Shown here: one piece after another, positions 1 to 9,945 of the stretch | How the letters are laid out: every line of letters begins with the position of its first letter | Numbering within the stretch: the first letter of the stretch is position 1 | From: Terriglobia bacterium | GTDB taxonomy: Bacteria > Acidobacteriota > Terriglobia > JAJPHL01 | Assembly: GCA_021325275.1 (NCBI GenBank) | Contig: JAJPHL010000037.1 | Span: 1-64,000, forward strand | DNA length: 64,000 bases | Direction: 5' to 3' | The notes under the pieces: model-generated | Databases searched by the model: none | What the model was told of the DNA's origin: nothing | What the model saw: the letters and a program-made list of their open reading frames with translations, nothing else | Program-made: the position numbers and the translations under genes

Positions 1-163
1 AACTGATCCAGTCCGCACGGACGAAAATGTTTGCTCACGCCGCTAGAATGCACGAGGGCAAATCAGTTGTAAAGTGTTTGTCGTGGTTCTATCTCCGACA
101 GGCTCCTCGACTTGACGATTTTTTCTGGTCCAATCTGCCGCATCAGTCATATCCTAGCCGATT

Positions 164-364
164 ATGCCACGGTCACGACGCTGCGTGATGCCGGGAACGC
201 CTTGCCATATTACGCAACGTGGCGTCGATCGGCGCGAGACCTTCTCCAGCGACAAAGATCGCGAAACCTATCTCGGGCTCCTGCAACAAAACCTCGATGA
301 ATGCGGCGTGCGTCTGATGGGTTGGTGCTGGACCACCCCGGCAGTTGCCGGCGCTCTTGATTAA
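164..364 (+). pseudogene. Truncated REP-associated (Y1/IS200-like) transposase
   Basis: The first 54 residues look like the N-terminus of REP-associated tyrosine transposases: an MPR start, a basic patch, then PCHITQRG, RRETF and a helix ending GVRLMGWC. In intact members the next residues lead into the HUH motif (MTNHVHL). Here the frame runs into an unrelated tail (TTPAVAGALD) and stops, so the HUH motif and the catalytic tyrosine are both absent. The usual length is about 150-250 aa; this ORF has 66. I read it as a dead remnant left by a deletion. A REP-like hairpin lies about 400 bp downstream (773-791), as is common near such genes. Confidence 0.7.
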
Positions 365-397
365 ACAGCTAGTAGGCCTGTATGGCCCAAGGTAACA

Positions 398-682
398 ATG
401 AATATGGGCAAGTTCGGCACAGGGTGGCGTGTTACTTCGGGCTTTGCGTTTCTGGGCTATGCCGTGGCTCTTGTGATGTACTTTTTGCCGCCGGCTTGGG
501 GCGCAGCATCGCCGGAACTCGTTTATGCGCTTTGTCCTCCTGCTATCTTTACGATCACGGTCGACCCGTCTTTTTCAACTGTAGCGATTCTTCTCGGTCC
601 CCTCAACGCCCTGCTCTACGCTTGTACAGGCTTCGTCATTGGGTTTGCTATCGAAGAGTGCGTTAGTGTTAAGCGCAAGTGA
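398..682 (+). CDS. Small hypothetical membrane protein
   Basis: A 94-aa protein with two or three hydrophobic stretches (about residues 12-32, 42-55 and 60-82), so probably an inner-membrane protein. I do not recognise a family. It starts at ATG 398; an overlapping ORF in another frame (382-666) has no protein-like composition and was left out. No operon partner is evident. It sits in a debris-rich stretch between a dead transposase and REP-like repeats, so it may be an accessory or decaying gene. Confidence 0.45.
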   Translation: MNMGKFGTGWRVTSGFAFLGYAVALVMYFLPPAWGAASPELVYALCPPAIFTITVDPSFSTVAILLGPLNALLYACTGFVIGFAIEECVSVKRK

Positions 683-772
683 TGGTGTCCGTCTGTAAAA
701 TCGGCGGAACGGGAGCGAATTCGTTTGCGTCGACGCAACTCAATCTGGTCCCAGGCCACATCTTGGGGAAAA

Positions 773-791
773 GGGGTCAGCGGCTGACCCC
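773..791. repeat. REP-like hairpin
   Basis: GGGGTCAG, three bases, then CTGACCCC: an 8-bp perfect stem. It extends to 12 bp with one mismatch through the flanking A and T runs. GGGTCAG/CTGACCC palindromes are a common form of REP element near Y1 REP-associated transposases, and a remnant of one lies at 164-364. Related 'gatgacccc' strings occur unpaired at 1257 and 2117. Confidence 0.55.
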
Positions 792-847
792 ATTTCCACA
801 AAGCTGGAAAATGATCTACGATTTCCAAAGCTGGAAAATGACCTATG
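792..847. repeat. Tandem direct repeat of about 27 bp
   Basis: Two adjacent units, 792-820 and 821-847. Both contain TTTCCA, AAAGC and TGGAAAATGA and differ by a two-base indel and a few substitutions. Each unit has its own short inverted repeat (TTTCCA/TGGAAA). The second unit ends on the ATG of the next ORF (845), so the repeat may supply that gene's upstream region. Its origin is unknown; such units often sit at insertion-sequence scars. Confidence 0.6.
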
Positions 848-1213
848 TCGCGCTCAATAGATGTCACAGGCTGGATATTCGTAGTCATTGGCATGGGATT
901 GGGTCTAGTGGCCGCATGGGCGGCCGACAACCGCCTAGTAACCGAAAATGTGGCCAGGGCAATGGTCTATACAATCGGACTATTTGGCGCCTTGGTTATG
1001 GCTCTTCGACCCGCCTGGCGTCGACTGCGGCTGTGGACCGATCTTGCAATCTGGTTTTTCCTGCACGCGGTGCTGGTTGTATTGCCCGTGAAACTGCTTG
1101 ACTCACACTCCCTTCGTTTGAACTGGGCAGTCGCGTTACCTCTGGTTGCTCCCGAGTTCCTGTTGTTCCTTAGCTTGCTATGGCGCCGAAACGTGAGTGA
1201 TTCGTCTGGTTGA
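845..1213 (+). CDS. Hypothetical membrane protein, 122 aa
   Basis: Four hydrophobic segments (about residues 8-28, 38-53, 64-83, 93-113) with basic residues between them, typical of a small integral membrane protein. No family recognised. ATG 845 is the first start after an in-frame stop at 839 and lies at the edge of a tandem repeat. There is no clear Shine-Dalgarno sequence, so expression is uncertain. Confidence 0.45.
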   Translation: MSRSIDVTGWIFVVIGMGLGLVAAWAADNRLVTENVARAMVYTIGLFGALVMALRPAWRRLRLWTDLAIWFFLHAVLVVLPVKLLDSHSLRLNWAVALPLVAPEFLLFLSLLWRRNVSDSSG

Positions 1214-1459
1214 GTGTGTGTGGGAGCCGACGGGACGGAGCCGACAGGCTCTCAGGATGACCCCATCTCCCATTCCCTCCCATTTTCCCAGCCTCTCTTT
1301 TACACGCCAACCATAGCCAGCGCTGTATCAGCGATTCGTCAACCGGCACTCAGGATTCGGATTCTACCGGAGCCAAAGCCGACCGAACATTGTTGTTCTG
1401 GATTTACGAGAGGCACAGGCTGCGAGCATCGTACTCGTATCTGCAGCTTGCATCGTCGG
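1214..1459. other. Intergenic, no gene seen
   Basis: An open frame here has no protein-like composition. There is a CT-rich stretch (about 1258-1300) with a 'gatgacccca' string like the REP-type hairpin at 773. Confidence 0.5.
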
Positions 1460-1882
1460 TTACGATTGAGGATTAGACCGTTCAGTACCTGCTGTAGTCC
1501 AACGTCGCAAAGCTAGCGTACCGCCTAGAGTAATCAGAAATGCGGCAACGGCTCCGGTGATCAAGATGATTCTTCGGTCGCGAGGAGCGAACGCTCCACC
1601 TATCCCAACGTTCAGCAACTCGAAGTGGAGCACGAATAGAATCGTGCAGAGAAGGGGGTAGCGCCAAGAACTCTGCCCCTTCCAGATCGCCCGCGCTATA
1701 GCTGTCGTCAGGAGGTACCCTGTTAGAAAAAACATCATCAGGATCTCGCCGGCATAGATCATCAAGCCCCGACCGAAGTTGTATTGATCATGACCGAAGA
1801 GACCGGTCAGCAGCAGTGCAAGCAGGAGAGCCTGTGAGCCCGTCTCGACCATCCAAAATAATAGTCGCTTCGCTAATGTCAT
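1460..1882 (-). CDS. Hypothetical four-helix membrane protein
   Basis: A 140-aa protein with four hydrophobic helices (about residues 15-30, 40-62, 75-93, 105-125) and a polar C-terminus. No family recognised. It begins 10 bp after the stop of a small co-oriented ORF (1893-2069), so the two could be one transcription unit. If that ORF is the tail of a contact-dependent or Rhs-type toxin, this protein would be in the position of an immunity protein. That is inference from position only. Confidence 0.5.
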   Translation of the reverse strand: MTLAKRLLFWMVETGSQALLLALLLTGLFGHDQYNFGRGLMIYAGEILMMFFLTGYLLTTAIARAIWKGQSSWRYPLLCTILFVLHFELLNVGIGGAFAPRDRRIILITGAVAAFLITLGGTLALRRWTTAGTERSNPQS

Positions 1883-1892
1883 TTTGATTACT

Positions 1893-2069
1893 TCACCTCT
1901 GCAGGCCCTCCCGGGCCTTCTTGACTAGGGCGTTTCCAATAGCTTCTCGATCACCTTGATTCGCGAAGTTGATTTCATGGCCGAGCTGTTTGCGGACATC
2001 CTTGAGGATACCGGCATTATGCCCGGTCGCCGGGTGCGAGTTCTTGCAGTCCTTTGCTGACAAGGTCAT
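1893..2069 (-). CDS. Short ORF, possible remnant of a larger protein
   Basis: A 58-aa ORF with good protein-like composition: motifs SAKDCKNSH, GHNAGILKDV, GHEINFANQGDREAIGNAL and a basic helical tail. The open frame extends about 12 codons upstream of the ATG before a stop, and the product looks like the C-terminal end of a larger protein. Short C-terminal tails followed by a small membrane gene are typical of displaced Rhs or polymorphic-toxin ends. I cannot name a family, so this reading is tentative. Confidence 0.4.
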   Translation of the reverse strand: MTLSAKDCKNSHPATGHNAGILKDVRKQLGHEINFANQGDREAIGNALVKKAREGLQR

Positions 2070-2286
2070 TGAGAGATTTATTGATTTCTCCGATGCCTCT
2101 TGACTTTACTTATCATGGATGACCCCGTTTCCCACGCCCGCTGTTGATTCGCCGCTGTTGATTGCTTGCGGTGAGTGAGCGACATGCATCACGTCCTGTT
2201 CCGGAAATGCGGCAAATAGTCGGCTTGACGAGCCTGTAGCAGAGAGATTTTCGCGAACCATGAATCAAGGCGAACTCGCACTGCGG

Positions 2287-2294
2287 TTTTTTTT
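2287..2294. repeat. Target-site duplication, left copy (T8)
   Basis: Eight T residues directly outside the left terminal repeat. The same eight lie directly outside the right end (5555-5562). An 8-bp duplication is the size usual for IS1595-family elements. Confidence 0.85.
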
Positions 2295-2319
2295 GGCAAT
2301 AACATACCTGATGGACTAA
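2295..2319 (+). repeat. Left terminal inverted repeat of the transposon
   Basis: 25 bp starting GGCAATAACATACC and ending GGACTAA. It is a perfect inverted match to 5530-5554, and the match ends sharply on both sides. Confidence 0.92.
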
Positions 2320-2335
2320 GCCGGTAAAACCGTGG

Positions 2336-2362
2336 TGGCGGCCTTGAGTGGTAAGGCCGCCA
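2336..2362 (-). terminator. Likely terminator of the P63C gene
   Basis: Perfect 10-bp stem (TGGCGGCCTT / AAGGCCGCCA) with a 7-nt loop, 6 bp past the stop of the minus-strand P63C gene. Read on the minus strand it is followed by a short T run (CGGTTTT), so it is probably a modest intrinsic terminator. It lies just inside the left terminal repeat and may also shield the element from host transcription. Confidence 0.7.
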
Positions 2363-2367
2363 GTGGT

Positions 2368-3393
2368 TCACTCCGACTCCCTCTCTTCAGGAAACGGCAA
2401 CAGGTAAGTCGTATTGACTTTTACGAAAGCGCGATTCACGCGGTCGTAGTACTTGTCCCATTCGCCAATACCGAAGGCCTTTGCCATACCGATAAGCTCG
2501 TAGAGATGATTTGTCAAGGCGGGATGCCCCACGTCCGAAGTGAGATGCTGAAAGTGCTTGTGTTCGCGGTATCCTTTTTCGGTAACGGGGTTCCTCTTCT
2601 TCAATTCATCCAACACCCCAGGGGCCAGCCTCGCGTACACGAGGTCGTTAACGATGTTGCCCATAATGGGCGACATCCTACCGTCGTTCCAGTTCCATCC
2701 CTTCAGCCGGAAGACCTGCTTGTAGAACTCCGTAGGGAAGGTGCGCACCCACGCCATGAGGTCTTCGGAAATGTACCGCTTGAGGATTTCCTGAAGCGCC
2801 TCGCGGTTACGGATTTCTTGGTAGCCTGTGGCTTCATGGACCAAAGCGATAATACCGACCTTCGCGAAGGCGCGCACGAGAACTTCGCATCGCTTTGCGA
2901 TATGGTCCTGCTGATAATTCAGCTTGCCTTTTTCTCTAGCGGCCAGTACCGCTTCGCAGATTTCCGGGAGAACCGAGGCCTCGTAACCATAGGCCATTGA
3001 GCCTTGCGCCCTGAACTTTAGAGGCGGCGTGATCATCTCCTGTAAGCCGCTGGTAACAAAAGGGGCTATGGATTTCGTGGTGAGAAAATTCGCGATCCGA
3101 TCACCACCCCCTTTTGTGGCCGTCCCTTGGCTCATCTTCAGAGCCGTCATCATGCCCGCTTGAGTGATAACACTCCGCCCATCGTCCAACACGTAACAAG
3201 GAATCTCTAGATCGGCGATCCGCAGCGGTCGATCCGGAGAGCCGTAGTCAGCCTTGGGAACGTGTGTGCGGTCCTTAGCCGTTTTGCTCCATCGTGCCTC
3301 AGCAGCGGCGGACGCAATAGCACTTCGGTCTTCGGCCGAAAGCTTCTCAGCCCTAGCTTTTCCGCCGAGAGATTGCACATCCTTTTCGTTCAT
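2368..3393 (-). CDS. P63C-domain protein (transposon cargo)
   Basis: 341 aa. Residues 1-36 contain a GGKARAEKL...AEARW segment of the kind seen in small DNA-associated proteins. Residues about 100-300 match the P63C-domain family, with TFPTEFYKQVFRLKGW (218-233), GNIVNDLVYARLAPGVLDEL (245-264) and a HKHFQHL...GHPALTNHL region (278-296). P63C proteins occur on phages and integrated elements, and their biochemical role is not established. A GGAGG Shine-Dalgarno sequence precedes ATG 3393. The gene is divergent from the transposase across about 100 bp containing repeated half-palindromes, so a regulatory role is possible but unproven. Confidence 0.85.
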   Translation of the reverse strand: MNEKDVQSLGGKARAEKLSAEDRSAIASAAAEARWSKTAKDRTHVPKADYGSPDRPLRIADLEIPCYVLDDGRSVITQAGMMTALKMSQGTATKGGGDRIANFLTTKSIAPFVTSGLQEMITPPLKFRAQGSMAYGYEASVLPEICEAVLAAREKGKLNYQQDHIAKRCEVLVRAFAKVGIIALVHEATGYQEIRNREALQEILKRYISEDLMAWVRTFPTEFYKQVFRLKGWNWNDGRMSPIMGNIVNDLVYARLAPGVLDELKKRNPVTEKGYREHKHFQHLTSDVGHPALTNHLYELIGMAKAFGIGEWDKYYDRVNRAFVKVNTTYLLPFPEERESE

Positions 3394-3459
3394 AAAAAAC
3401 CTCCATGCTTACGGTAGCACGCATTTAAAATGCTTGCAAGAATTATTTTACGAATTCTC

Positions 3460-3488
3460 TTGACATGCTTGCTTAGCAAGCATATGCT
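3460..3488 (+). promoter_or_regulatory. Transposase promoter with an embedded operator-like palindrome
   Basis: TTGACA at 3460-3465, a 17-bp spacer, then TATGCT at 3483-3488: close to a sigma-70 consensus. The spacer is almost wholly a palindrome, ATGCTTGC-TTA-GCAAGCAT (3465-3483), so a bound repressor would block the promoter. Half-site-like copies lie at 3429-3438 (AATGCTTGCA) and 3403-3409 (ATGCTTA), nearer the divergent P63C promoter. ATG 3496 is 7 nt past the -10, so the mRNA may be leaderless. Confidence 0.7.
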
Positions 3489-3495
3489 TTTATGT

Positions 3496-4452
3496 ATGGA
3501 AACGACACCCAACTCATTGCAAGCCGCAATCATCCACTTCGCGAATTACGAGAACTGCCACAAGTTCATGGTTGACCTTCGTTGGCCGGATGGCAAGGTG
3601 ACATGCCCCGCGTGCGGATCAGAGAAAGTGATCTGGCTGGCAAAGACGCGCCAGTGGAAGTGCTACGGCAAACACTCGCAAGCGAAGTTCTCGCTCAAGA
3701 CGGGAACGATTTTCGAGGACAGCCCGTTGCCGTTGTCGAAGTGGCTACCGTGCGCTTGGCTGATTCTGAATTGCAAAAACGGCGTTTCCAGCTACGAGAT
3801 TCACCGCGATCTGAAAGTCACTCAGAAAACCGCGTGGTTCATGCTCTCGCGGTTGCGTCTTGCGATGCAGGACGATCTAACCGGCGGAACGCTCAACGGC
3901 GAAATCGAGGTCGATGAAAGCTTCATCGGCGGCAAAATTCGAAACATGCACAAGTCGCGCAAGCGGATCGTTCAACGGCACGGTAGCCGCATGGGAAACA
4001 AGAGTGTTGTATTCGGAATGTTGGAACGCAGGACCGGCAAGGTGCGCGCCACGGTGATTCCAGACCGCAAGTGCGACTCCATCCAAAACGAAGTGCTTGG
4101 CAACATCGAACGCGGCGCGACGATCATTTCCGATGAGTTCGCCAATTCGTGGGAGATGCCCAAGAAGTACGTTCACCAAATGGTGAATCACCTGGAAACC
4201 TACGTGAACGGCAACGTTCACACGCAGGGAATCGAAAATTTTTGGTCGCTGTTGAAACGTGGTCTCGGCGGAACATACGTGAGCGTTGAGCCTTTCCACT
4301 TGTTCCGGTACGTCGATGAGCAATGTTTCCGCTTCAATAATCGCCGCGTGACCGATGCGGAACGTTTCGAGATGGGCATGGCGCAAATCGTTGGCCGTCG
4401 CCTCACGTACAAGCAACTCACTGGCAAAGAGCCGCTGGACAGCAGACCATGA
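3496..4452 (+). CDS. IS1595-family transposase
   Basis: 318 aa from ATG 3496; the open frame starts at 3430, but the promoter at 3460-3488 and family N-termini favour 3496. It has a partial zinc ribbon (CPAC at 37-40, C56, H60) followed by FSLKTGTIFEDSPL, then a helix-turn-helix-like segment (SSYEIHRDLKVTQKTAWFML). The RNase H-like core carries D140 (EVDESFIGG), D213 (IISDEF) and E247 in HTQGIENFWSLLKRGL. This layout belongs to IS1595, and the KCYGKH and NCKNGVSSYEIHR motifs suggest the ISPna2-like branch. No frameshift is seen, so the enzyme looks intact and would act on the 25-bp ends. Confidence 0.93.
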   Translation: METTPNSLQAAIIHFANYENCHKFMVDLRWPDGKVTCPACGSEKVIWLAKTRQWKCYGKHSQAKFSLKTGTIFEDSPLPLSKWLPCAWLILNCKNGVSSYEIHRDLKVTQKTAWFMLSRLRLAMQDDLTGGTLNGEIEVDESFIGGKIRNMHKSRKRIVQRHGSRMGNKSVVFGMLERRTGKVRATVIPDRKCDSIQNEVLGNIERGATIISDEFANSWEMPKKYVHQMVNHLETYVNGNVHTQGIENFWSLLKRGLGGTYVSVEPFHLFRYVDEQCFRFNNRRVTDAERFEMGMAQIVGRRLTYKQLTGKEPLDSRP

Positions 4453-4501
4453 GGCGCGTCTGGCTACTCCGACGCCCGACGCGAGGAAAACGGAAGCGTG
4501 G

Positions 4502-4507
4502 TACACT
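4502..4507 (+). promoter_or_regulatory. Candidate -10 of the 48-aa gene
   Basis: TACACT followed by 6 nt and then ATG 4514, the same geometry as several other starts in the window. No convincing -35. Confidence 0.35.
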
Positions 4508-4513
4508 CAGCAC

Positions 4514-4660
4514 ATGAGCAACACCTTCGAGACAAGCCCAGGCTTCGAGCGTTTGAAAACGGCGATGCGCGGCGTTGTCCACCTGCCGAAGTCCGAAGTA
4601 CAGAGGATCGTCGCCACAGTTAAGCCGCCAACGCAGAAGAAAAGCAAGAAGTCAAAATAG
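4514..4660 (+). CDS. 48-aa small basic protein (transposon cargo)
   Basis: Begins MSNTFETSPGFERLKTAM, continues GVVHLPKSEVQRIVA and ends in a lysine-rich tail (QKKSKKSK). Short proteins with a 'hxxVPKxEh' core and a Lys-rich end are common small hypotheticals in acidobacteria and beside mobile elements; their function is unknown to me. An upstream in-frame extension to 4355 overlaps the transposase and is unlikely to be used. TACACT 6 nt before the ATG suggests a leaderless transcript separate from the transposase gene. Confidence 0.6.
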   Translation: MSNTFETSPGFERLKTAMRGVVHLPKSEVQRIVATVKPPTQKKSKKSK

Positions 4661-4796
4661 AAAAAATCGCACAGGGTACTTTGTGATGCAAAGATCATCC
4701 TTCTGTCGCGCATGATACAATCTGTCTTAGCCCCTCTTGACACGTTCACCTCGAAGGGGCACGATATCCTCGGTGAATGTCGGGGGCAGCAAAAAT

Positions 4797-5042
4797 ATGC
4801 TGGAAAAAGAATTAAAGCACTTCGAGGACATCAAGCCAGAGCTACTCAAGTCCCATAGCGGGAAGTTCGCGCTCATTCATGGCGAGGAACTAGTTGGCAC
4901 TTTTGATTCCGCTGACAATGCCTACTCCGAAGGCGTGAAGCGCTTTGGGAAAGATCCTTTTCTTGTTAAGCGGATCAGTGAGACGGAAGAGGTTTACCGA
5001 AATCAGGCCCTTCAGCTGGGATTGATGCATGCCCGTATTTAA
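4797..5042 (+). CDS. 81-aa protein, first gene of a cargo pair
   Basis: Starts MLEKELKHFEDIKPELL and has the core GKFALIHGEELVGTFDSADN, then EGVKRFGKDPFLVKRI. It resembles short alpha/beta proteins (DUF5678-like) with a 'GK-aLi-geelvgtF' strand pair, which in many bacteria precede a retropepsin-like gene. I know no biochemical role. The chosen start is an internal ATG preceded by GGGGGC; the open frame extends to 4737. The gene overlaps the next by 14 nt, so the two are probably translationally coupled. Confidence 0.7.
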   Translation: MLEKELKHFEDIKPELLKSHSGKFALIHGEELVGTFDSADNAYSEGVKRFGKDPFLVKRISETEEVYRNQALQLGLMHARI

Positions 5043-5496
5043 CTTCTTCCATTGGAACAAGGACATTGGAGAGACGCTGGAGTCCACTGGACCCTTGGTC
5101 CCGGTCACAATCGGCATTCCTGCTGCACTTGAGCAGTTCTGCGCAGAGAAAGGAATCGCAATCCCAGCACCGATCAGCGGGTATGCGCTCATCGATACCG
5201 GCGCATCAGCTAGCGCCGTCGATGAAGATGTCGTTTTAGCATTGGGTGTGCAGCCCATCGACTCGATTCCAACCAATACTCCCCATGGAGCGGGACGTTC
5301 TTCTATCTACCCGGCAAAAGTCACCTTTCCGGCATTGCAGATCGAAGACTACGCTATGAATCGTCTTATGGGATGCAAGTTGAAATGGACCACTGTAGAC
5401 GGGAAAGAGATCATCATGCTGCTGGGTCGCGACATGCTGAAGTTTTTTCTCCTGGTTTACAACGGGAAGTCCTCAGACATACACCTCGCGTTCTAG
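5029..5496 (+). CDS. Retropepsin-like aspartic protease (transposon cargo)
   Basis: 155 aa. The active-site motif is ALIDTGAS with D57-T58-G59, and the hydrophobic-hydrophobic-Gly motif is MLLGRDML around residues 135-142. One such domain of about 120 residues would act as a homodimer. There is no signal peptide or membrane segment, so it should be cytoplasmic. It overlaps the 81-aa protein gene, which may be its partner or substrate (inference). It is the last gene before the right terminal repeat, 33 bp past its stop. The motif is clear; the target is unknown. Confidence 0.8.
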   Translation: MPVFNFFHWNKDIGETLESTGPLVPVTIGIPAALEQFCAEKGIAIPAPISGYALIDTGASASAVDEDVVLALGVQPIDSIPTNTPHGAGRSSIYPAKVTFPALQIEDYAMNRLMGCKLKWTTVDGKEIIMLLGRDMLKFFLLVYNGKSSDIHLAF

Positions 5497-5529
5497 ACTC
5501 ACTGCCCGTTTCCAGAACCGAACGCCCCG

Positions 5530-5554
5530 TTAGTCCATCAGGTATGTTATTGCC
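5530..5554 (-). repeat. Right terminal inverted repeat of the transposon
   Basis: 25 bp, perfect inverted match to 2295-2319, directly followed by T8 at 5555-5562. Confidence 0.92.
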
Positions 5555-5562
5555 TTTTTTTT
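5555..5562. repeat. Target-site duplication, right copy (T8)
   Basis: TTTTTTTT directly outside the right terminal repeat, matching 2287-2294. The pair marks the insertion site. Confidence 0.85.
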
Positions 5563-5780
5563 GCTCGTTGAATCAGGCGGTTAGACTTCGCGGCGCCCGA
5601 ACACGATACAGCACTGTGTCACAATGGTTTTGATGCGCGGCGCCGTTAGTGGACAAGTAAGTCCCGCTGAAATATCAAAATTACAAAACGAACCTACCGA
5701 GGACCTAACTGGAATCGGTGCAATGCGTTGGGAGGCAAACTTGGGGCACGCAGCCGCTCGCTGAAACTCGCACCTGTTTC

Positions 5781-5860
5781 TCATCGCCCCAACTCGTCGA
5801 TTCGTTGCTCGATGTGCGCGCGAAGTTCTTTATCGAGACGTTCTTCCGCATTGCCCCTGA
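5781..5860 (-). pseudogene. Possible fragment of a permease N-terminal domain
   Basis: On the minus strand, just past the stop of the propeller gene, an open stretch reads ERLDKELRAHIEQRIDELGR and stops. This resembles the 'LDeELrfHIe' segment that opens many acidobacterial permeases, including those at 51526 and 54185 here. No start or downstream part is present. The rest of 5563-5780 has no convincing gene. Confidence 0.25.
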
Positions 5861-7120
5861 TTACTTTTTCCGAATGTCGTAGCAAAGCAGTTCGTCTTGC
5901 ACGCGAACGAATAGTTTGCCATCGGCGATCACGGGCGGCGTGCGCGCCACCGCGCTGGTTCCCAGCTCAAAGCGTGAGACTTCGCGATACGCTTGCGGCG
6001 AGGGATCGATGAGCGCCAGCGCGCCATCTTCGCCGAGGATATAGAGGCGTCCATCGGCATAGGAGAGCGATCCCTTGCCGACGCTGCGGTCTTTCCAGAG
6101 GATTTTTCCCGTGGCGAAGTCCTTGGCCGTGAGAAACGCGTTGGCGAAACTGTACAGCGTGTCGCGCACCAGCACCGGCACGGCGTAATAGAAGTACTGC
6201 GTTCCTTCGTGCCGCGAGTACACCTCCGTCATTTTGGGACCGTCCAGGCGCAGAAGCGCTTCGTCGGAGTCGAACGAGCCGGCCACAAAAACGCGATTGT
6301 CGTTGAAGACGGGCGTGACGATTGCTCCGAAGCGATCGAAAATCTTGCCATATCGCCAGAGGACTTCACCGGTCTCGGGACGCATCGCCAGCAATTCCGG
6401 ACGGGTGAGTGCCAGCAGCAATCTGCTTCCTCCGCTATCGACCGCGATCGCCGAGGCGCATCCGGCGGCTTCGCTTCCTATTTTCGATTTCTGTTGTCCG
6501 GAGCCGGCCTCGCTCCCGGTTTTCCATTTTAGGTTTCCGGTCGTTTTATCGAGAGCGATGACGGCCGCGCCCGGTCCGCCCGGCATGGCGATCAGCAGAT
6601 TGCCTTCGACAAGCGGCGATTCGCTGAATCCCCAATCGGGATCCTCGCCGCCGTATTGCTTGATAAGATTTTGCGACCACTGCACGCGCCCCGTGGCCGC
6701 GTCTGTGCTTTGGAGCGTGCCCTCGGCGCTGAGTGTAAACACGCGGCCGGAATCGATTGTCGGAGTGCCGCGCGGACCATCCAGAGCTTGTTTGTGATGG
6801 AAGTCCGGTCCAGCCGGCGCTTCCCACAATTTCTTTCCGGTGGCGGCATCAAACGCGAAGACGTACTGTTTGTCGCCGCGCTGCCCTTGCGTATAGAGTC
6901 GTCCGCCGACGACGGAGGGCTGCGAGTATCCCGGCCCGAGCCCGGAGATTTTCCAGACCAATCGCGGACCTCCCGGCGGCCAGGACGCGAGCAGTCCGGT
7001 TTCGCCGGAAATGCCGTCACGGTTCGCGCCGCGGAACTGCGGCCAGTCGGCGGCCGGAGCCTGCAGCGCTACGAGAGCAGTAAGCGCGATGAGCACGATG
7101 GCGATCTTAGGCCGTTTCAT
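5861..7120 (-). CDS. Secreted PQQ-type beta-propeller protein
   Basis: 419 aa starting MKRPKIAIVLIALTALVAL, a signal peptide ending near APA|ADW. The mature part begins DWPQFRGANRDGIS, typical of outer-membrane-type PQQ-like propellers in acidobacteria and planctomycetes. It has repeated blades with AFDAATGKKLW, STDAATGRVQW, ALDKTTGNLKW and TAKDFATGKILW. There is no CxxCH haem site and I see no dehydrogenase active-site Asp, so it is probably a structural or binding propeller rather than an enzyme. An open frame extends 18 codons upstream, but the signal peptide fixes the start. Confidence 0.85.
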   Translation of the reverse strand: MKRPKIAIVLIALTALVALQAPAADWPQFRGANRDGISGETGLLASWPPGGPRLVWKISGLGPGYSQPSVVGGRLYTQGQRGDKQYVFAFDAATGKKLWEAPAGPDFHHKQALDGPRGTPTIDSGRVFTLSAEGTLQSTDAATGRVQWSQNLIKQYGGEDPDWGFSESPLVEGNLLIAMPGGPGAAVIALDKTTGNLKWKTGSEAGSGQQKSKIGSEAAGCASAIAVDSGGSRLLLALTRPELLAMRPETGEVLWRYGKIFDRFGAIVTPVFNDNRVFVAGSFDSDEALLRLDGPKMTEVYSRHEGTQYFYYAVPVLVRDTLYSFANAFLTAKDFATGKILWKDRSVGKGSLSYADGRLYILGEDGALALIDPSPQAYREVSRFELGTSAVARTPPVIADGKLFVRVQDELLCYDIRKK

Positions 7121-7329
7121 AATCCTCCCGTCAGCGCGACGCCTAGAGCGTCTACACGTATGATCGCCGCGCATAGGTAGACCGTCAAGGTATCAGTTGT
7201 AAATACTTTTTCAGGCCATTCGCGTGCCTCCGCCCTGAAATACCTTCGCAGAAATTCAGTGCATTTCCGTAGAGAATACGGCTACCATGGCGGCAGCGGC
7301 GCGGCCCGGTTCGCGCCATCGGAGAAAAA

Positions 7330-9945
7330 ATGAAAACGTCCGCGTCCCATAAGCAATGTCCGATCCAGTTGGAGCAGGTGCTCCGCGAGGAGCGTGAGAA
7401 ACTCCGCCCCAACGGCGAGACAGCCCCTTTGTCGGCGCTGTGCATTTCCGGTGGGGGAATTCGCAGTGCGACCTTTGCCTTAGGCGTGATCCAGGGCTTG
7501 GCCGACTATGGATTGCTCGAACAATTCGACTATCTCTCGACCGTTTCGGGCGGCGGCTATATCGGTGGCTGGCTCAGCTCTTGGACTGCCAGAGCAGGAG
7601 GTATCGAGAAAGTCGCGCCTCGCCTGAAACGGGACCAGAAACCACCGGCCGCCGGAGAATTCGATCCCATCGATCATCTGAGGGAATTCAATAACTATTT
7701 GACTCCGAAACTGGGCTTCTTTTCCGCCGACACCTGGACCGTCGCGGCGACGGTGGCGCGCAATATCCTTTTGAATTGGCTTGTTCTTATTCCGCTCATC
7801 ATGGCCGCATTGATGTTGCCGCGGATGTTACTGTCGGTGGCCCGCTTGGGAGATACCTTCAAGGAGTACTTCGGGTCGGCGTCGGCTGTTTCCACCTCAA
7901 TTTGGGTTGTCTACGTGATTCCGATTGCCGCGGCCGTGGCGCTGGCGTATGCCACTTACAACATGGCGCGATACATGCCGCACGTGGGCGGTGTCGATCA
8001 CACCCAGGAAAAATATTTGCTCAATGTACTTGCGCCTGTCGTGACGGCAGCACTGTTGTTTGTCGCGTTCGATTCGCTCTATTACTGGGGCGATCTGGAG
8101 GTGCCTACGACGCTGCCCCGAGTGATCCTTCAGATCCTGCCGCCGATCGCCACGGGATGGTTGGGTTATCTGGTGGTTTGCGGAAAGCCTCTGAAAGAGC
8201 GGATGCAATTGCTCTTCGGGCCGCTTTCGTTGGCCGTACTGTTGATGGGCATTTGCACCGCAGCTAGCGCTTGGTTTGTCACCAACTATGTATTGCCGCC
8301 TACCACTTGGCCGCAGTATGTCAGCATCGCTCCGCCGCTGCTCTTGTTGGCGCTCGATTTAGGTATCACCGTTTTCGTTGGACTTTCCAGCCGGGTTTTA
8401 GCCGACGACGACCGTGAATGGATCGCCCGATCGTCGGGCTGGATCGAGTTGTTCTGTGTTTGCTGGCTGGGGGCTTGCGCGCTCGTGTTGCTGATTCCCG
8501 GCGGAATCCTCGAAGCGACGTATAAGTATCACACCGCCGGCGGGTTGGCGGGGCTCAGCGCGATCTCAGGCTGGCTCACCAGCCGGTTGTCGAGTGCCAG
8601 TTCCACAAAACCGTCTGTGATGATGAAGATCGCCAAGAGTGCTGCGCCGCTGGTTTTTGTCCTTTCGGTTGCAGTGGGATTATCCATCCTTACGAACGTA
8701 TTGCTTGTCAAAACCGGATCGGTCTTTCCCATGATCAGTGGCGATGAAGTGACCACTCCGGCCTGGTGGGAGCACACGAATCTTTTGGAGCACACGCCGT
8801 GGGAGGTTGTGTTGTTGTGGGGATCGTCTTTCTTTTTTTTCAGCTGGGTCGCCGCGCATTTCATCAACATCAATACCTTTTCGCTACAGGGCATGTATCG
8901 GAATCGTTTGATTCGCGCCTACCTCGGCGCGTCGAACTTGAATCGCCGCGCCAGCCGTTTCACTGGGTTTTCGAACACCGACAACGTCCTGATGCGCGAC
9001 ATGCGCGCCGTCTGGAAGCCGTTTCACGTTGTGAATATGGCATTGAACCTGGTCTCCGGCAGCCGCCTGGCGTGGCAGCAGAGAAAGGCGCAATCCTTTA
9101 CGGTGTCGCCGCTGCACGCCGGCAGCTTCGATCTCGGCTATCGGGATTCTTCACACTATGGCGGTCCGGACGGGATTTCCTTGGGAACCGCGGTGGCGAT
9201 TTCCGGCGCGGCGGCGAGTCCCAACATGGGCTATCATTCGTCGCCGGTGATTGGCTTCATCATGACGCTGTTTAACGCGCGGCTCGGCTCGTGGCTCGGC
9301 AATCCCGGTGACGCCGGCGACAAAACGTGGAAGCTCGGGGGGCCGCAGTCCGCGGTACGCTCGCTGGTGTCGGAATCGCTGGGGCTGACTACCAACTCAA
9401 GTTCCTACGTCTACCTTTCCGACGGCGGGCATTTCGAGAATCTCGCGCTGTATGAGATGGTGATGCGCCGCGTGAAGCATATCGTTGTGCTTGACGGTGG
9501 TTGCGATCCGGCGCTGGGATATGAAGATCTCGGTAACGCCGTGCGGAAGATCCGAATCGATATGAACATTCCGATCGTCTTCGAGGATCCCTTGATTCGA
9601 GGATTGAAGGATCGCAAGAAGCGCTGCGCCGTCGCGACGATCAAATACTCCGCCGTCGACTCCACTTGCGAAGACGGCGTGTTGGTGTATGTCAAACCGA
9701 TCTTGCTATCGACCGAGCCTCCCGACGTGGGCAGTTATGCGTGCACCAGTCCGTCGTTTCCGCATGAAACCACCGGTGACCAGTGGATCAACGAATCGCA
9801 GACGGAGAGCTATCGGATTCTCGGCCGGCACACCATGGATGAGATCTGCAGAAATTGGCGGGGCAAAACCGTGGACGATTTCACCCAGCATGTGGCGGCC
9901 TCGTATCTGAGCGGCGAAACGAAATCACAGGCCGCCGCCGGGTAA
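7330..9945 (+). CDS. Patatin-like phospholipase with a multi-pass membrane insert
   Basis: 871 aa. The oxyanion loop is GGGIRS (41-46), the nucleophile is S73 in TVSGGGYIGGW, and the catalytic aspartate is D698 in LSDGGHFENLALYE, so the catalytic dyad is intact. Between the halves (about 135-530) there are roughly eight to ten hydrophobic segments, placing the enzyme in the inner membrane with the catalytic domain split around them. It likely hydrolyses acyl esters of membrane lipids. A GGAG sequence precedes ATG 7330 by 5 nt. No operon partner; the neighbours are a divergent propeller gene and a downstream SBBP gene. Confidence 0.85.
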   Translation: MKTSASHKQCPIQLEQVLREEREKLRPNGETAPLSALCISGGGIRSATFALGVIQGLADYGLLEQFDYLSTVSGGGYIGGWLSSWTARAGGIEKVAPRLKRDQKPPAAGEFDPIDHLREFNNYLTPKLGFFSADTWTVAATVARNILLNWLVLIPLIMAALMLPRMLLSVARLGDTFKEYFGSASAVSTSIWVVYVIPIAAAVALAYATYNMARYMPHVGGVDHTQEKYLLNVLAPVVTAALLFVAFDSLYYWGDLEVPTTLPRVILQILPPIATGWLGYLVVCGKPLKERMQLLFGPLSLAVLLMGICTAASAWFVTNYVLPPTTWPQYVSIAPPLLLLALDLGITVFVGLSSRVLADDDREWIARSSGWIELFCVCWLGACALVLLIPGGILEATYKYHTAGGLAGLSAISGWLTSRLSSASSTKPSVMMKIAKSAAPLVFVLSVAVGLSILTNVLLVKTGSVFPMISGDEVTTPAWWEHTNLLEHTPWEVVLLWGSSFFFFSWVAAHFININTFSLQGMYRNRLIRAYLGASNLNRRASRFTGFSNTDNVLMRDMRAVWKPFHVVNMALNLVSGSRLAWQQRKAQSFTVSPLHAGSFDLGYRDSSHYGGPDGISLGTAVAISGAAASPNMGYHSSPVIGFIMTLFNARLGSWLGNPGDAGDKTWKLGGPQSAVRSLVSESLGLTTNSSSYVYLSDGGHFENLALYEMVMRRVKHIVVLDGGCDPALGYEDLGNAVRKIRIDMNIPIVFEDPLIRGLKDRKKRCAVATIKYSAVDSTCEDGVLVYVKPILLSTEPPDVGSYACTSPSFPHETTGDQWINESQTESYRILGRHTMDEICRNWRGKTVDDFTQHVAASYLSGETKSQAAAG

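Follow-up and report, generated by a model that had tools for sequence, protein, structure and literature searches.

A cargo-carrying IS1595-family transposon of the transporter-IS type and its relatives with exchangeable cargo

The 64,000-nucleotide stretch of Terriglobia bacterium DNA analyzed here (the window) carries at positions 2295–5554 an element that the evidence supports as a complete cargo-carrying member of the IS1595 family, of the transporter insertion sequence (IS) type. As read from the footprint of its movement, the transposon probably (roughly 80%) comprises a mobile core, formed by the transposase and a companion gene on its 3′ side, with the remainder being exchangeable cargo. 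The structure, the mobility footprint and the replacement of cargo were directly visible in the sequences of the element and its relatives. The features of the element are as follows:

2287–2294, no strand: left copy of the target-site duplication (T8), 8 bp; from flank sequence and empty target copies elsewhere
2295–2319, forward strand: left terminal inverted repeat, 25 bp; from complementarity and a genome search for the 24-bp end
2368–3393, reverse strand: P63C-domain protein, 341 aa, cargo; PF10546, E = 1.6e-31
3496–4452, forward strand: intact IS1595-family transposase, 318 aa, core; PF12762, PF12760, NF033547 and conserved acidic residues
4514–4660, forward strand: 48-aa protein of an unnamed family, treated as core; accompanies one clade of the transposase
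4797–5042, forward strand: 81-aa protein, cargo; homologue directly upstream of a protease homologue in 5/5 other genomes
5029–5496, forward strand: retropepsin-like aspartic protease, 155 aa, DTGAS motif, cargo; PF13650, E = 6.6e-07
5530–5554, reverse strand: right terminal inverted repeat, 25 bp; from complementarity and a genome search for the 24-bp end
5555–5562, no strand: right copy of the target-site duplication (T8); from flank sequence

The terminal inverted repeats are perfect (25 of 25 positions complementary, spacing of 3210 nt) and the 8-bp flanks of the 3.26-kb element are identical (TTTTTTTT, 8/8), in full agreement with the original prediction. T8 is an ordinary 8-bp target-site duplication, which is usual in the IS1595 family (PMC8101967). 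When the element was removed, the joined sequence aligned at 78–89% to uninterrupted copies of a dispersed repeat on other contigs of the same genome (GCACTGCGG followed by 6–8 T). These copies show the empty target; the prediction had proposed to seek the uninterrupted site (2286 joined to 5555) in relatives. Its suggestion that insertion into a T run is notable did not hold; across 58 elements, the duplications had an A+T content of 66% and tended to start with C and end in G, so the T run is unremarkable and was rejected as a special target. The 24-bp end occurred four times in the 6.86-Mb genome at up to three mismatches, always as two pairs, and the reversed control pattern gave 0 matches there. 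No further matches were obtained at the level of the order (two genomes), and an Rfam scan of window positions 1–8000 returned nothing significant.

The transposase, predicted to be intact, matched all three models above cut-off. PF12762 (E = 3e-38) and NF033547 (163 bits, cut-off 75) identify the DDE_Tnp_IS1595 catalytic domain, and PF12760 (E = 2.3e-09) an N-terminal zinc ribbon, which is found in all IS1595-family groups except IS1016 (PMC8101967). The ribbon residues C37, C40 and C56 were invariant in 68 relatives, across which the acidic residues E138, D140, E141, D213 and E247 are also kept. The 8-bp target-site duplication of the family is represented by T8 and by 58 relatives with 8/8 identity. 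ISfinder divides the family into the subgroups ISPna2, ISH4, ISSod11, ISNwi1, ISNha5, IS1016 and IS1595, and a single transposase gene is the stated content of most members (PMC8101967). Here the ends enclose the P63C, 81-aa and protease genes, which also occur elsewhere without the transposase, placing the element among transporter IS. All the genes that had been predicted, including the overlap of the 81-aa and retropepsin genes, were confirmed, the P63C and protease genes by their PF10546 and PF13650 matches. Of the four that had been called cargo, these two and the 81-aa gene stand as such, and the 48-aa gene is instead a companion conserved with the transposase.

Two further complete elements are present in the genome, on contigs C55 and C64. 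The C55 element (G000:C55:185156–189170; L009:557–4571) is 4015 bp long, shares its 24-bp ends with the window element and is flanked by the duplication ATTTTATT. Its transposase is 85% identical to that of the window as protein and 82% as DNA (dN 0.12, dS 0.71), and it also carries a related 47-aa gene. Its cargo is entirely different, consisting of a Panacea-domain gene and other genes, and homology between the two elements was limited to the two ends and window positions 3493–4551. The predicted cargo-carrying nature was thus corroborated by the recurrence of the same ends around a related transposase with other cargo. The C64 element (L110:2111–5504; G000:C64) is 3394 bp long and more diverged, with the duplication AGATGGAG and a transposase 55% identical to that of the window. 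Its cargo differs again, being two proteins (261 and 154 aa) without known Pfam family. Next to the Panacea-domain (SocA-like antitoxin) gene of C55 is a 146-aa gene that belongs to no known family and is a candidate for a new Panacea-linked toxin.

The group was surveyed through 80 loci with transposases 49–64% identical to that of the window, mostly in Acidobacteriota metagenome-assembled genomes. Paired ends whose consensus is close to GGCAATAATATACTTGACTAACCA, together with 8/8 duplications, delimited 58 elements of 1.7–5.4 kb, including two of this genome, with a score that used the duplication itself; as a control, the 8-mer 5 bp further out on one side was identical in 0 of the 58. A generic search of viral contigs, used as an independent set, found 52 of 78, compared to 1 of 78 with shuffled flanks. 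Across ten closely related pairs, the transposase core matched at 72–86% and the cargo was replaced, with the far end (24–62 bp) matching in 8/10. The small-gene start codon was precisely where the match between L042 and L055 stopped. Placing the 19 DUF3800 carriers on the transposase tree required 18 changes (mean of 16.6 with shuffled labels), which shows that this cargo class ignores the transposase tree, the changes being no fewer than with shuffled labels. The exact cargo of the window element was present in the elements of no other sampled genome. The original prediction had taken unshared cargo, or cargo genes occurring without the transposase, as grounds for refutation; both were observed, but as cargo is exchangeable in this group, that yardstick does not fit. 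Among the viral-contig loci L168–L226 (transposases 35–50% identical), more distant IS1595 relatives that lack the small gene likewise form elements exceeding the length needed for a bare transposase, the extra DNA often lying upstream of the transposase.

Homologues of the 48-aa protein, with a Phe-rich start followed by VP..E and a basic tail, were found in 57 of the 68 elements at E < 1e-4 using a profile trained on 24 of these 68 and the window. Across 25 transposase-bearing genomes and that of the window, 50 of 55 small-gene matches (about 12 of the 55 being training members of the profile) were located at most 3.5 kb from such a transposase, 48 on its 3′ side and 30 of them at most 70 bp away. 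The remaining five were on contigs that lacked an equally strong transposase match; two of these contigs carried fragments of a transposase, and single ends were present on some. Within 60 genomes of the phylum of the window, the only three matches were those in the three elements of this genome. In viral contigs, the small gene accompanied 40 of 49 transposases of at least 42% identity and 0 of 29 below, many of the latter also sitting in delimited elements. The small gene had dN below dS in every pair with computable dS (0.05 versus 0.57 in the cleanest pair). Its protein family had no NCBIfam match and one weak, unconvincing Pfam match in a single member; the predicted structure of two helices (pLDDT of 70) had no Foldseek match, and sequence searches against solved structures gave nothing useful. 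Because the 48-aa gene is tied to the transposase clade by proximity and co-occurrence, we treated it as a core gene of that one clade and not as cargo, a putative role suggested by the co-occurrence.

The small gene could alternatively be a conserved part of the cargo operons, such as a promiscuous antitoxin-like protein that neutralizes exchangeable toxins, and be near the transposase merely since cargo abuts it. Some relatives have it at a distance of more than 1 kb from the transposase or overlapping with cargo, and it commonly overlaps, or comes straight after, a same-strand cargo gene (L060, L063 and L064). Its convergent orientation relative to the transposase (38/50) and the conserved block of L042 and L055, which stops at the small-gene start codon, also speak for such an arrangement. 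We nevertheless regard a place in the cargo operons as unlikely, though deserving some weight, since the small gene remains on the transposase side through cargo swaps and is within 70 bp of the transposase in 30/50 in either orientation. It is also absent with all 29 transposases below 42% identity, and both closely related elements of this genome have it on the transposase strand. That the 25-bp repeats and T8 arose by coincidence around an ordinary chromosomal gene cluster had nothing in its favour and is scarcely credible against perfect ends, a duplication, empty target copies and dozens of genomes with the same architecture in unrelated flanks. Accidental host DNA, trapped between the ends and replaced at random, would suit the great diversity of the cargo and its many open reading frames without a family match. 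We consider this origin improbable in comparison with functional baggage, as the recognized families are mostly restriction, toxin–antitoxin and DUF3800 and the 70 flanking proteins give housekeeping families among the 25 listed (a qualitative contrast), and as the 81-aa/protease pair moves as an intact two-gene module.

The composition of the cargo was determined from 140 proteins, with Pfam matches to DUF3800 (14), GmrSD (4), RelA_SpoT (2) and Panacea (2), in addition to C5 and N6/N4 DNA methylases, Vsr, Mrr, PemK, HEPN, AAA, DUF3226 and others. DUF3800, which has an RNase H-like fold (PMC10910872), is carried by 19 elements according to a purpose-built profile, and no Rfam motif was detected within those DUF3800 elements that were scanned. 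PADLOC models matched by cargo include NsnA, PD-T4-2_A and SspE. Recognized cargo is mostly restriction, toxin–antitoxin and abortive-infection-like, unlike the 70 flanking proteins from the same loci, which include housekeeping and metabolic families among the 25 listed; this contrast is qualitative and not a counted enrichment. A cargo protein of approximately 300 aa is common to seven elements (including L058:7478–8344 and L064:3935–4885), and the L058 copy, when scanned alone, had no Pfam match.

The cargo of the window element itself (P63C and the 81-aa/retropepsin pair) is not recognized as defence. The P63C gene is divergent from the transposase; relatives were found on 16 plasmid records, in six other genomes out of 199 and in no viral contigs. 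Its protein had no PADLOC match, and its predicted structure was unusable (pLDDT of 39). PADLOC was run on the 81-aa protein and the protease as part of a protein set, and its output does not list each of the two separately; no protease relatives were found on plasmids. These two genes overlap by 14 bp and form a conserved module, occurring together in 5/5 other protease-bearing genomes without this transposase adjoining. Such a conserved overlapping two-gene arrangement is that of type II toxin–antitoxin systems, making the pair a candidate toxin–antitoxin or regulatory pair; it was not filed as toxin–antitoxin, a label that would require toxicity of one member neutralized by the other. The pair (window 4797–5496; L146, L147, L148 and L149) is adjacent in distant genomes of the phylum. 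At locus L145 (4391–6152), from a different genome of the phylum, a P63C gene follows an IS1595-type transposase (35% identical) at a distance of 53 bp; no ends or duplication were found and the locus was not counted as an element.

Mechanistically, the DDE transposase would pair both ends and move whatever lies between them, so that any cargo would ride along, with insertion presumably at A+T-rich 8-bp sites. The companion protein may assist or regulate transposition, and cargo may be retained for a benefit to host or element through defence or maintenance. Replacement of cargo could proceed mainly via recombination between the cores of co-resident elements (82% identical here), giving hybrids that would keep working ends and regain a duplication at the next move. 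A few relatives (L082 and L084), which have good ends and no duplication, may be such core-recombination hybrids, a pattern that other rearrangements give as well.

Transporter IS of the IS1595 family are already known, having been described in 2009 by Siguier, Gagnevin and Chandler as relayed in later articles (PMC3129680, PMC8101967 and PMC9330008). The element shares with them, and with the family, the transposase domain, zinc ribbon, terminal GG, 8-bp duplications and passengers inside the ends. The clade here differs from the described IS1595 transporter IS in having a small conserved gene alongside the transposase and in exchanging cargo systematically, features for which no description was found in the searchable literature; nor did the literature searched contain a description of IS1595 elements with defence or toxin–antitoxin cargo. 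Decoupling of core from cargo, with unrelated cargo in close relatives and with defence and toxin–antitoxin genes as cargo, is known from Tn7-like transposons (PMC8649781). However, those are much larger, with a median of 14–29 kb and multi-gene tns machinery (PMC8649781), the elements here measuring 1.7–5.4 kb and encoding a single transposase and a tiny companion. Tn3-family unit transposons likewise carry toxin–antitoxin pairs as passengers (PMC9330008), whereas the elements here have an IS1595 DDE transposase, 8-bp duplications and no recognized resolvase gene. A bolder reading, which we put forward tentatively and at less than even odds, is that an undescribed large clade of small IS1595 transposons in soil bacteria serves as a dedicated defence and toxin shuttle. 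Its two-gene core would consist of the transposase and a member of a new family of approximately 50–80-aa proteins, cargo would be received between the small gene and the distal end, and transposition or the accommodation of new cargo would depend on the small protein.

One transporter-IS clade is nearly always loaded, swaps cargo even among close relatives and retains a tiny gene not named in Pfam or NCBIfam. Since the ends define the cargo boundaries with single-base precision, the elements can be used as short, cleanly bounded modules to mine for new defence or toxin–antitoxin genes, such as the 81-aa/retropepsin pair. The companion gene offers an experimental entry to the question of how small transposons cope with changes of cargo.

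The dispersed repeat that was the target of the window transposon is approximately 200 bp long and scattered over the genome, beginning with GCACTGCGG-TTTTTTT and ending near GGTGCAATGCG. It occupies window positions 2230–2294 and 5555–5738, and other copies are located at G000:C53:54350–54600, C24:8924–9129, C29:128–339, C26:54914–55064 and C10:70623–70768. Assignment of the window and C55 insertions to one repeat family was rejected; about 30 bp around the C55 site resemble the repeat and the remainder does not align, so only the target in the window is called a repeat copy. The termini of the repeat look weakly inverted-repeat-like, as in a miniature element.
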